Below, piece after piece: positions 9,972-12,518 of a DNA stretch of 64,000 nucleotides. The position numbers and the translations under genes were made by a program. Under the pieces are notes generated by a model that was not told the DNA's origin, made no database searches, and saw nothing but the letters and a program-made list of their open reading frames with translations. The first letter of the stretch is position 1. Each line of letters starts with the position of its first letter. The DNA comes from Phycicoccus sonneratiae (lineage in GTDB: Bacteria; Actinomycetota; Actinomycetes; Actinomycetales; Dermatophilaceae), in assembly GCF_016887965.1 (NCBI RefSeq), contig NZ_JAFDVD010000008.1, forward strand, positions 1 to 64,000. Reading direction: 5' to 3'.

Positions 9972-10739
9972 TCAGCGGGCGAGGAACAGGCTCCCGAGCG
10001 CGAGCAGCCACGAGACGAACGAGCCGACGAGGAAGTACTCGGTGACCTCGTCGATGCCGGCGCCCTCGACCGACTCGCGGTCCGAGCGCTTGCTCTGCAG
10101 CTCGGGGAAGCGGATGAGCCCCTTGGCCGCGATGACCAGCCCGGCGGCCGTCAGCTGACCGGCGAGGCCGAGCCCGACGATGACGACGCGCTCCATCGGC
10201 CCGAGGAGGCGACCGCCGCGCAGCTGCTCGGCGGGCTCGGCGCCGGGGTCGCTCGTGCGGTCGACCGGGCGCAGCGCCCCGACGCTGACGAGGACGAGGC
10301 GCACGATGATGTTGCCGGTGGCAAGGTTGGCGAGCAGCAGACCGGCGACGAGCAGCACCCGGCCCACCCCCGCGTCGGCACCGAGCATCGGCAGGTCGGC
10401 CCAGGCGAGCCAGCGCCCGAGCAGGCCGCCGGGGTCCGAGGCCCAGCCGGAGAGCGCGACGAGCCACACCGCCCCGCCGGCGAGCGCGGCGAGCGCCGGC
10501 GCGTGCCCGGTGCCGGTGAGCAGGGCCTGGGTCGACCAGCGCACCCAGAGCACGAGGGCGAGCGCCGCCCCGAGGCCGACGACGAGGTCGGTGGGGCCGA
10601 GCAGGCCGCCGAGCGCGCCGAGCCCGGCCGTCGCGGCCAGCCCGACCCACGGGGCCCAGCGGGTGACCCCCGGGCGCGGGCCGGAGCGCACGAGGTCGCA
10701 GAGGCCCACGCCGACGAGCCACACCCCGAGCCAGGTCAC
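9972..10739 (-). CDS. Polytopic membrane protein coupled to SatD
   Basis: The start GTG at 10739 overlaps the satD stop as GTGA, so the two are probably translationally coupled. The 255-residue protein has about six hydrophobic segments. The C-terminal third, with VIAAKGLIRFPEL and later TEYFLVGSFVSWLLALG, resembles from memory the end of DUF3307 membrane proteins often found next to SatD. The N-terminal DUF3307 part is not clearly present. No biochemical function is known. It converges with the aldolase gene, 18 bp apart. Confidence 0.7.
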   Translation of the reverse strand: MTWLGVWLVGVGLCDLVRSGPRPGVTRWAPWVGLAATAGLGALGGLLGPTDLVVGLGAALALVLWVRWSTQALLTGTGHAPALAALAGGAVWLVALSGWASDPGGLLGRWLAWADLPMLGADAGVGRVLLVAGLLLANLATGNIIVRLVLVSVGALRPVDRTSDPGAEPAEQLRGGRLLGPMERVVIVGLGLAGQLTAAGLVIAAKGLIRFPELQSKRSDRESVEGAGIDEVTEYFLVGSFVSWLLALGSLFLAR

Positions 10740-11389
10740 GGCAGGGCCCGGAGCAGCTCGTGGGCGGCGAGCACCGCACCGATGCCGTCGGCCCGCACCC
10801 GCTGCGAGACGGCGGACGCGCTGACGCCCTCGCGCTCGGCGAGCTCGGCCTGGGTGGTGTCGGGGTGCATGAGTCCTTCCAGCAGTCGCAGCGACCGGTC
10901 CGAGAGGGAGCCAACCAGATGGTCCCGACAGAGCAGCGCCGCGTTGACCGCGTCGACGCGCGGGTCGTCGGGGTCCTCGGCGCGGTGGCCGGTGCGCAGG
11001 GTGCGGGTCGGTGACCGCTCCGCGGCGGCCTCGACGTGCTCGACGGCCGCCCGGGCCGCCCACCACCCCGGACCGTCCTCGATCCCCCGCGCGGGGTCGA
11101 GCACCGTCACGGCCCCCCGGCCGACGCCGATGCGCACGTCGACGTCGGGCAGGAGCGCGAGCCGCACCCGGAGCGCGGCGTCGAGGGCCGCGCCGAGGGT
11201 GGCGTAGGCCCCCTGGAACTCGTCGCCGACCGTGATCCGCAGCCCGCGGAGCGAGGGCACCACGGTCTCGGTGGTCTCGAGCGCACCGACGACGGCGTCG
11301 TGCACCACCTGGCGGTCGTGCGAGACCCGGGAGGCGACGATGTCCCCGATGAGGACACACGGTGAAGACGTGGACTTCATCTCAGCCAT
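10736..11389 (-). CDS. SatD family protein (cyclase-like domain plus helix-turn-helix)
   Basis: The 217-residue protein starts at ATG 11389. The N-terminal part has LIGDIVASR (Asp16), VGDEFQG (Asp56) and a VRIGVGRG turn. These sit in the positions of the two metal-binding aspartates and following strand of class III nucleotide cyclases, the pattern I associate with the SatD family. Residues 180-202 (QAELAEREGVSASAVSQRVR) form a helix-turn-helix. It could be a one-component regulator that senses a nucleotide. The promoter is leaderless and covered by three phased palindromes, which suggests autoregulation. Cyclase activity itself is not shown by the sequence. Confidence 0.8.
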   Translation of the reverse strand: MAEMKSTSSPCVLIGDIVASRVSHDRQVVHDAVVGALETTETVVPSLRGLRITVGDEFQGAYATLGAALDAALRVRLALLPDVDVRIGVGRGAVTVLDPARGIEDGPGWWAARAAVEHVEAAAERSPTRTLRTGHRAEDPDDPRVDAVNAALLCRDHLVGSLSDRSLRLLEGLMHPDTTQAELAEREGVSASAVSQRVRADGIGAVLAAHELLRALP

Positions 11390-11435
11390 CTGAAGATCAT
11401 ACCTTCAGATGGTACGAATGAAGCCATCGTCTTCA
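11363..11435. promoter_or_regulatory. Triple phased operator TGAAG-N7-CTTCA at satD
   Basis: Three perfect copies of TGAAG-N7-CTTCA occur at 11363-11379, 11391-11407 and 11419-11435, each start exactly 28 bp from the last. The central copy extends to 10-bp arms (11386-11395 and 11403-11412). The first copy is inside satD codons 4-9, the second spans the -10 element, and the third covers the -35 position and the mtnA stop. Confidence 0.85.
11396..11401 (-). promoter_or_regulatory. -10 element of satD (leaderless), inside the central operator
   Basis: TATGAT on the minus strand occupies the 7-nt spacer of the central palindrome. It is followed by 6 nt and the ATG at 11389. Protein bound at the palindrome would block RNA polymerase. 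Confidence 0.6.
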
Positions 11436-12479
11436 GATCTGGTCGACGAGCCGGTCGGGGCCTGCGCCCGCGGCCGGCTCGACCACTCCCCGCTCGGTGG
11501 CCACGGCCGCGACGAACCGGGCCGGCGTGACGTCGAAGGCGGGGTTGAGGCCCCGGCTGCCCATCGGCGCGGTGCGCCGGCCGGCCAGCTCGGTGACCTC
11601 CTCGCCGGGCCGCTCCTCGATCTCGATGCCCGTGCCGTCGGGCATCGACAGGTCGACCGTCGACCAGGGTGCGGCGACGAGCAGCGGGATGCCCGCCTCG
11701 CGGCAGGCCAGACCGACGCCGAGCGTGCCGACCTTGTTCGCGACGTCCCCGTTCGCGGCGATGCGGTCGGCCCCGACGACGGCGCAGTCGACGAGCCCGC
11801 GCAGGATCGTCGAGGCGGCCGCGCTGTCGACCTGGACGACGTGCGGGATCCCCTCCTCGGCCAGCTCGTAGGCGGTGAGCCGCGACCCCTGGAGCAGCGG
11901 CCGCGTCTCGTCGGCGACGACGAGCTCGAGGGCGTCCCGGGCGTGCAGCTCGCGGACCACCCCGAGCGCGGTCCCCCAGGCCGAGGTGGCCAGCGCGCCG
12001 GCGTTGCAGTGGGTGAGCACCCGCAGGCGCGGCCGTCCGACCCGGGCGAGCAGCCAGTCGGCACCGAGCCGCGACAGCTCGTGGTTGGCCGCCTCGTCCT
12101 CGGCGGCGACCTCGCGGGCGGCCGCGAGCACCGCGTCCCTCCCCCGTGCCACGAGCGGCCGGACCCGGTCGACGCCCCACGCGAGGTTGACCGCCGTCGG
12201 GCGGGCGTGCCGCACCCGGTCGACCTCGGCCTCGAGGCGCGCGGCGTCCCAGCCCTCCCGCTCGGCCTGGTCCATCGCGACGACGACCCCCATCGCCCCG
12301 GCGACGCCGAGGGCCGGGGCTCCCCGCACCGCGAGCGCGACGATGGCGTCGACGAGCTCGTCGACGGTGCGCACGACGAGGTGCTCGGTGCGCTCGGGGA
12401 GGACGGTCTGGTCGAGGAGGGTGAGGGCGCCGTGGCCGTCGGCGGCCGCGTCGTCCCACTCGACGGCGAGGAGGCTCAT
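11433..12479 (-). CDS. mtnA: S-methyl-5-thioribose-1-phosphate isomerase
   Basis: MtnA converts methylthioribose-1-phosphate to methylthioribulose-1-phosphate in methionine salvage. The 348-residue protein shows RGAPALGVAGA for phosphate binding. The catalytic pair is Cys158 in LTHCNAGAL and Asp238 in GADRIAANGDVANK, matching the Cys160/Asp240 pair of the Bacillus enzyme. The start is ATG 12479, set by a leaderless promoter, not the upstream in-frame ATG at 12512. Other salvage genes are not adjacent apart from the uncertain class II aldolase at 9.3 kb. Confidence 0.95.
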   Translation of the reverse strand: MSLLAVEWDDAAADGHGALTLLDQTVLPERTEHLVVRTVDELVDAIVALAVRGAPALGVAGAMGVVVAMDQAEREGWDAARLEAEVDRVRHARPTAVNLAWGVDRVRPLVARGRDAVLAAAREVAAEDEAANHELSRLGADWLLARVGRPRLRVLTHCNAGALATSAWGTALGVVRELHARDALELVVADETRPLLQGSRLTAYELAEEGIPHVVQVDSAAASTILRGLVDCAVVGADRIAANGDVANKVGTLGVGLACREAGIPLLVAAPWSTVDLSMPDGTGIEIEERPGEEVTELAGRRTAPMGSRGLNPAFDVTPARFVAAVATERGVVEPAAGAGPDRLVDQI

Positions 12480-12486
12480 GCCGGCC

Positions 12487-12492
12487 ACCCTA
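12487..12492 (-). promoter_or_regulatory. -10 element of mtnA (leaderless)
   Basis: TAGGGT on the minus strand is followed by 7 nt and ATG at 12479. Confidence 0.5.
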
Positions 12493-12518
12493 GGCGGCGA
12501 CCGGTGCGGCACGAACGC

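Follow-up and report, generated by a model that had tools for sequence, protein, structure and literature searches.

A phased palindrome array over satD is a putative operator of SatD, a predicted autorepressor with a cyclase-fold domain

The gene satD of Phycicoccus sonneratiae lies in a 64,000-nucleotide stretch of genomic DNA (contig NZ_JAFDVD010000008.1, positions 1 to 64,000; hereafter the window) and is overlaid at its promoter by three palindromes repeated at a step of 28 base pairs (bp). We propose, with a probability of roughly 0.8, that SatD itself uses these palindromes as its operator, putatively as an autorepressor of satD and of the membrane-protein gene that follows it. The predicted protein is most likely an autorepressor in which a cyclase-fold domain serves as sensor. 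In the portions of the literature available here, SatD appears either under an acid-tolerance label, with nothing further (PMC10326533), or as an unexplained essential accessory gene: satD of Streptococcus pyogenes (178/249 genomes) is described as the one accessory gene to rank in the highest quarter for essentiality (PMC11323703). Such essentiality, as reported for that species, would be expected if the gene kept something harmful in check. No description of a SatD operator was found among the literature matches listed.

Three palindromes across the satD promoter

A first-pass annotation of this DNA had claimed three 17-bp palindromes at 28-bp intervals, and the pattern TGAAG-N7-CTTCA indeed matches exactly at 11363-11379, 11391-11407 and 11419-11435. 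These are the three copies in the window, against none in 100 dinucleotide shuffles, and the exact palindrome occurs nowhere else in the whole genome (4,111,833 bases). The two steps are 28 and 28 bp, or about 2.7 turns of DNA. The annotation had further placed a -10 element in the central spacer, the -35 position in one outer copy and the other outer copy inside satD codons 4-9. All three placements hold: TATGAT occupies six of the seven spacer bases (minus strand, 11401-11396), GCTTCA (11424-11419), a weak match to the consensus, lies inside the upstream site, and the downstream site falls in codons 4-9. The gene and its sites are as follows.

10736..11389, minus strand: satD, 217 amino acids, PF16264, with a class III cyclase-fold domain and a C-terminal helix-turn-helix (Pfam, structure model, Foldseek).
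11419..11435, minus strand: site 1, the upstream palindrome, minus-strand sequence TGAAGACGATGGCTTCA; holds the mtnA stop and the -35 position (exact match; equivalent in many relatives).
11391..11407, minus strand: site 2, the central palindrome, minus-strand sequence TGAAGGTATGATCTTCA; -10 box in its spacer (exact match; equivalent in relatives).
11363..11379, minus strand: site 3, the downstream palindrome, in satD codons 4-9 (exact match; same register in Mycolicibacterium L069, L071 and L079).

The stop codon of the upstream gene mtnA (11433-11435) forms the first three bases of site 1. The arms of the central palindrome are longer than in L005 or L006, as judged by eye, and the minus strand of 11340-11450 folds into a strong nested hairpin in P. 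sonneratiae (z -5.4 against shuffles).

Conservation of the array and its step

A protein search (expectation value, E, up to 0.001) finds SatD in 30 of 58 relatives, three of these matches being distant (G018, G044 and G048; E 9e-6 or weaker). The 45-bp double palindrome, allowing at most 3 mismatches, is present in 24 of the 58 genomes. Each of these 24 belongs to the 30 SatD-positive ones and none to the 28 others, a group counted by a search that overlooks distant members (at least two of the 28, G019 and G055, have a distant SatD by profile). The split of the array by SatD presence is not perfect. All 12 genomes of the window's genus (G000-G011) carry the double array, and a reversed control pattern matched two genomes, G009 once and G016 four times per strand. 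The exact single palindrome is found somewhere in 39 of the 58 relatives, satD copies included; the specific feature is the phased array, not single palindromes.

The double array stands at satD itself in 23 of the 24 genomes, the exception being G014. A wider regulon was considered and rejected on this count and on the confinement of exact palindromes to satD in the window's own genome. In G014 a double array with 1 mismatch (L051:1473-1517, equal to G014:C20:218610-218654) lies about 1.2 kb upstream of satD between convergent genes, by eye, and the satD promoter itself retains one clear site; the distant copy may be a remote operator or a relic of rearrangement.

An alignment of satD orthologues, which the annotation had asked for beforehand, shows the palindrome and the 28-bp step kept upstream of satD both in relatives and in Mycolicibacterium. 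In L069, L071 and L079 of the latter genus, three exact sites start at -46, -18 and +10 (first base of the start codon as 0), the register seen in the window, though the SatD proteins are about 50% identical. No TGAAG site was found at Blastococcus, Planctomycetota and some other distant SatD loci compared.

The geometry was also sought without regard to the half-site, by scanning 160 distinct SatD loci with every 5-base half-site, a spacer of 7 or 8 and a step of 28 or 29. Agreement at 19 or more of the 20 positions occurs in 84 of the 160 loci, but in none of 800 dinucleotide shuffles and in none of 800 off-step controls. Among the spacer-7 matches a step of 28 occurs in 70 loci, a step of 29 in 11 and any other step from 20 to 40 in none; because of these counts we regard 28 bp (29 in some lineages) as a real constraint. 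The final set comprises 290 loci, 289 with a SatD frame (L206 has none) and 272 of them distinct; its 182 spacer-7 loci (at most 2 mismatches) show three sites in 88 cases, two in 87, four in 1 and one in 6.

These patterns bear on the simplest alternative, that the palindromes reflect chance or codon constraint. It could draw on the position of site 3 in coding sequence and on the single palindromes found elsewhere in many genomes, but no shuffle or off-step control reaches 19 of 20, and the register is shared by SatDs only about half identical; shuffles, off-step controls and conservation together rule it out for all practical purposes. The distribution instead points to the array as an ancient feature of satD.

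A half-site code that follows the SatD recognition helix

In other lineages the geometry is kept and the half-site is changed, to ATAAG, ATCAG, TTAAG, TGAAC or TCAAC; a second SatD class, described below, has TCAAG half-sites around an 8-bp spacer. The altered half-site tracks the recognition helix of SatD, which bears out the assignment of this operator to SatD-type genes in the first-pass annotation. The helix maps to the following position.

10790..10819, minus strand: SatD recognition helix, residues 191-200 (helix from the model; 191 and 196 covary with bases 1 and 5, 191/192 with base 2).

With half-sites called in the form [AT]NNA[GC] at a score of at least 17 of 20, arrays were called in 204 of the 272 distinct loci, and the helix can be read in 203 of these. 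Of the 37 loci with A at base 1, 36 have Gln191; of the 166 with T, none does. Similarly, base 5 is C in 12 loci (10 with Lys or Arg at 196) and G in 191 (0 with Lys or Arg there), and base 2 is C in 17 loci, 12 with Gln192, a residue that none of the other 186 loci carries. Fisher values for these base/residue tables include no correction for relatedness, and the early and final tables both count L154, which looks like an artefact call (L198 is counted in the early table only).

A sequence-weighted ranking of protein columns (189 well filled, 183 variable enough) puts residue 191 at the top of the 183 columns for base 1 and residue 196 at the top for base 5, by normalised as well as raw mutual information, and both residues lie inside the predicted recognition helix 191-200. 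The pattern was first seen in earlier loci and then checked on 112 fetched later, whose proteins all differ from every earlier one somewhere in the last 150 residues. Of these, 32 were uncalled, and all 80 with a called array follow both the base 1 and the base 5 rule. A tree built from the N-terminal domain shows 12 changes each for base 1 and residue 191.

This correspondence is matched by an alignment to the KorA repressor. HMMER aligns SatD residues 190-196 with TRGAVSQ of KorA (E 0.022, the best KorA chain), so that SatD residues 191, 192 and 196 correspond to KorA R48, G49 and Q53. In the available part of the source, these three KorA residues are reported to contact bases, R48 the outer and Q53 the inner ones, and SatD residues 191 and 196 follow a like order (PMC4889941). 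By covariation, SatD's own DNA-binding domain would fit the operator at its own promoter, and because of the covariation and the alignment of KorA contact residues we consider binding by SatD itself the best-supported reading.

A promoter within the operator

The promoter elements lie within the array as follows.

11396..11401, minus strand: inferred -10 box TATGAT, beginning 12 bp upstream of the ATG (sequence; TAnnnT at -12 in 133/155 loci).
11419..11424, minus strand: inferred -35 position GCTTCA, weak consensus match (sequence).
11389, minus strand: inferred transcription start, at the A of the satD ATG (from -10 spacing).

A TAnnnT element in the palindrome spacer, with an in-frame start just downstream, is present in 155 of the 182 spacer-7 loci, and its first base stands at -12 in 133 of these 155, a count that took from each locus the -10/start pair closest to -12. 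When this choice is dropped and only the two called sites are used, the distance to an in-frame start is still most often -12 (123 of 182 loci; the next is -21, with 60). TAnnnT occurs within a called spacer in 151 of the 182 loci; shuffling the spacer letters lowers this to 47.7 on average. Because the -10 box sits 12 bp before the start codon, a leaderless satD mRNA is implied, with a putative start set by -10 spacing; the leaderless promoter claimed in the annotation is in keeping with this conserved geometry.

The same geometry bears on the possibility that the repeats act at the RNA level, as an attenuator or terminator in a read-through transcript from mtnA into satD. The strand does fold far better than shuffles (z -5.4), but palindromes fold by construction, no terminator-like site was found in a scan of the region 11300-11500, and a leaderless transcript would include site 3 only. 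RNA pairing would also leave the covariation with a protein helix unexplained, and we consider this explanation very unlikely.

SatD protein and fold

SatD matches PF16264 at E 2.2e-16 (60.6 bits against a curated cut-off of 29), and a helix-turn-helix match covers approximately residues 161-199. The structure model has a predicted local distance difference test score (pLDDT) of 96.8. In Foldseek searches the N-terminal fold resembles the class III adenylyl cyclases Ma1120 (4wp9_B; E 1.3e-4, template modelling (TM) score 0.37 of query) and Rv1900c (1ybu_A; E 2.6e-4, TM 0.44); the sequence match to Rv1900c is weak (E 0.039). D16, D56 and E57 are kept in 272 of 272 SatD loci and Q59 in 271, D16 and D56 being what we take to be the metal-binding acidic positions of class III cyclases. 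Position 109, where cyclases presumably carry their transition-state Asn, is W, Y or F in all 231 loci with Trp110. SatD accordingly has the fold and the two acidic positions of these enzymes and lacks the Asn; nucleotide sensing is plausible and catalysis uncertain.

PADLOC gave a weak match to the helix-turn-helix region of SatD and nothing else. A link to mobile elements was rejected, with 0 phage matches, 1 plasmid match and 0 matches in viral contigs (a single peptide pattern was used there).

Proposed mechanism and its weighing

In the mechanism we propose, the C-terminal helix-turn-helix of SatD dimers would read TGAAG half-sites 12 bp apart, and two or three such dimers would align at the 28-bp step across the -35 position, the -10 box and the first satD codons. 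Bound SatD would block RNA polymerase at the promoter of a leaderless mRNA and so limit expression of both satD and the membrane-protein gene that overlaps it. The cyclase-fold domain probably binds a nucleotide, which would change the dimer or multimer state and release the DNA. The fixed step of 28 or 29 bp is compatible with neighbouring dimers touching, and the multimer or loop that the annotation suggested may form.

Several observations weigh against this reading. No array was called in 68 of the 272 SatD loci. Scanning 11300-11500 for consensus sigma-70 promoters gave no match, which by this measure makes the -35 weak; the -12 count of 133/155, as said, favours the nearest pair. The covariation counts come from SatD sequences that are mutually related. 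L072 is an exception for both base 1 and base 5, and of the 17 loci with C at base 2, 12 fit the rule for that position. For base 2, residue 192 leads on the normalised measure, but raw mutual information puts 191 at the top and 192 fifth, with residues 151, 23 and 30, outside the helix, in between; the base 2 partner (191 or 192) is less clear. The top match for base 3, residue 199, is weak, and base 4 could not be ranked because half-site calls were limited to [AT]NNA[GC]. A first tree test had too few independent changes, and even with added loci the well-supported branches gave no significance. On these branches base 1 and residue 191 give only 4 independent pairs (4/4 agree), against 12 pairs when all branches are counted, base 5 and residue 196 give 3 (2.7 agreeing on average), both too few for significance, and base 2 and residue 192 give 5 (2.5 agreeing). 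A nucleotide role, finally, is something we infer, because the cyclase Asn is replaced by an aromatic residue.

Some of these points lend room to the alternative that another DNA-binding protein, encoded elsewhere, uses the palindromes and that satD is merely the regulated gene. SatD binding is itself inferred, a helix-turn-helix alone is no proof of self-regulation, and the well-supported independent co-changes on the tree are few. Against this stand the covariation of bases 1 and 5 with SatD helix residues above all other ranked columns, later loci included, and the absence of the array from all 28 relatives without a SatD match in the protein search. On balance we give the involvement of another protein only a slim chance.

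A different possibility is that SatD binds the array yet activates, or switches between activation and repression. Three sites in series could recruit polymerase as well as exclude it, and a weak -35 would suit an activator; the sites, on the other hand, cover the -35 position, the -10 box and the first codons, and a protein bound over these normally excludes polymerase. For the same reason repression would be the natural outcome, and we regard activation as improbable, retaining autorepression by SatD as the preferred reading.

We also put forward a bolder extension, which we hold to be possible but doubtful. SatD might be the sensor-repressor of a widespread two-gene module, leaving its 28-bp-phased operator when a nucleotide signal changes and freeing a toxic membrane partner, as a transcription-level guard of the Panoptes type. 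Because 84 bp equal 8 turns of 10.5 bp, three dimers would sit about 120 degrees apart and could form a screw-like sheath.

The membrane partner, mtnA and a second SatD class

The genes on either side of satD lie on the same strand.

9972..10739, minus strand: partner membrane protein, 255 amino acids; GTG start codon, overlapping the satD stop codon in GTGA (sequence, profile searches).
11433..12512, minus strand: mtnA, S-methyl-5-thioribose-1-phosphate isomerase, the upstream neighbour; its stop lies in site 1 (TIGR00512, 7.4e-114).

satD starts 43 bases past the end of mtnA. The gene that follows satD often encodes a membrane protein of some 250 residues, commonly with a 4-bp overlap. Among the matches listed, the partner lies at most 1.5 kb downstream in 90 of 102 high-scoring SatDs of one family (89 within 100 bp), and SatD lies upstream of 127 of 139 partner matches. 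These counts argue for satD and the partner as a conserved two-gene pair. The array was called in 3 of 12 loci without the partner against 58 of 69 with it, a comparison drawn mostly from one genus that we do not use as proof.

For the partner itself, Pfam gives no match with the window protein and only single-member weak matches with the alignment; NCBIfam gives none, and the best hits in the Protein Data Bank have E 0.13 by sequence and E 0.49 by fold. The family carries the motifs GGRLLGPMER, AAKGLIRFPE and TEYFLVGSFVSW. In L195 and L199, outside the class, the satD neighbour is a DUF3307 protein. In genus g80 (L121, L128, L130, L245, L257, L276, L278, L280 and L283) a SatD with Trp110 occurs with both the partner and a called array absent.

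A second widespread SatD class (L031, L033, L127, L185-L187 and L307-L326) contains many members that start T-A-D-Q, and it lacks Trp110. Its palindromes have an 8-bp spacer and, where called, a step of 28 or 29, and the next protein often matches the C-terminal half of the partner profile only. The partner was found at most 1.5 kb downstream in 35 of 48 second-class SatDs among the matches listed, mostly through that half. In f19 genomes (e.g. G1019:C3, G989:C4, G974:C1 and G1001:C3) several satD genes of this class are found no more than about 2.5 kb from a contig start, which suggests a repeated element alongside.

Samples and exclusions

L063-L066 were dropped from the half-site-blind scan onward as judged copies of genomes already included. 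The first tree test, the column ranking and the -10 count exclude L154, whose array call was taken for an artefact, and L198, which has no helix. Set A1 holds 88 proteins, that of the window, replacing L004, and 87 others of 97 selected loci; set A4 includes one mis-cut row, L171 (15% identity).

Significance

What appears to be new is an ancient, lineage-specific operator code read by the helix-turn-helix of SatD, together with a strict phasing of 28/29 bp and an operator that encloses a leaderless promoter. Autorepressors are a known kind of regulator; new here are the SatD family, the array geometry and the cyclase-fold sensor. An orphan family would become a testable regulator with an operator and a partly readable protein-DNA code, which predicts which SatD residue reads which base and gives a sequence signature for locating SatD modules. 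A membrane partner under control of this operator would offer a direct handle on module function, and the proposed circuit could help explain why satD can be essential where present, yet missing from other lineages.

Comparison with known systems

Panoptes resembles the satD module in that a nucleotide-enzyme-like protein is encoded with a membrane protein (PMC12657230, PMC12657218); in the available part of the first source, active mCpol suppresses a toxic membrane protein (PMC12657230). mCpol has no entry in the best 50 of 1051 fold matches to SatD. Unlike Panoptes, SatD would add autoregulation at the DNA level, and its partner has no matched fold.

The class III adenylyl cyclases Ma1120 and Rv1900c have the N-terminal fold and the metal-binding acidic positions in common with SatD. 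SatD differs from them in the aromatic position 109, where cyclases have an Asn, and in the fused helix-turn-helix.

The recognition helix of the KorA/TrfB plasmid repressor aligns residue by residue with that of SatD (...AVSQ...), and the KorA residues that contact bases sit where SatD covaries with its operator (PMC4889941). The consensus operator of KorA spans 12 bp, whereas SatD half-sites flank an N7 spacer every 28 bp, and the portions of that source available here report no cyclase domain in KorA (PMC4889941).

The nearest mechanistic analogue is NrdR. The sources, available in part, describe it as a nucleotide-sensing repressor of ribonucleotide reductase genes that often controls its own gene, combining nucleotide-binding and DNA-binding domains and using two boxes at a restricted distance (PMC12051234, PMC9110341). 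Pfam finds in SatD neither the zinc ribbon nor the ATP-cone of NrdR, giving SatD, helix-turn-helix families and one tail-fibre match below the cut-off; unlike NrdR, SatD has a cyclase fold and a helix-turn-helix. NrdR boxes prefer an integer number of turns (PMC12051234), whereas the SatD step of 28 or 29 bp corresponds to about 2.7.
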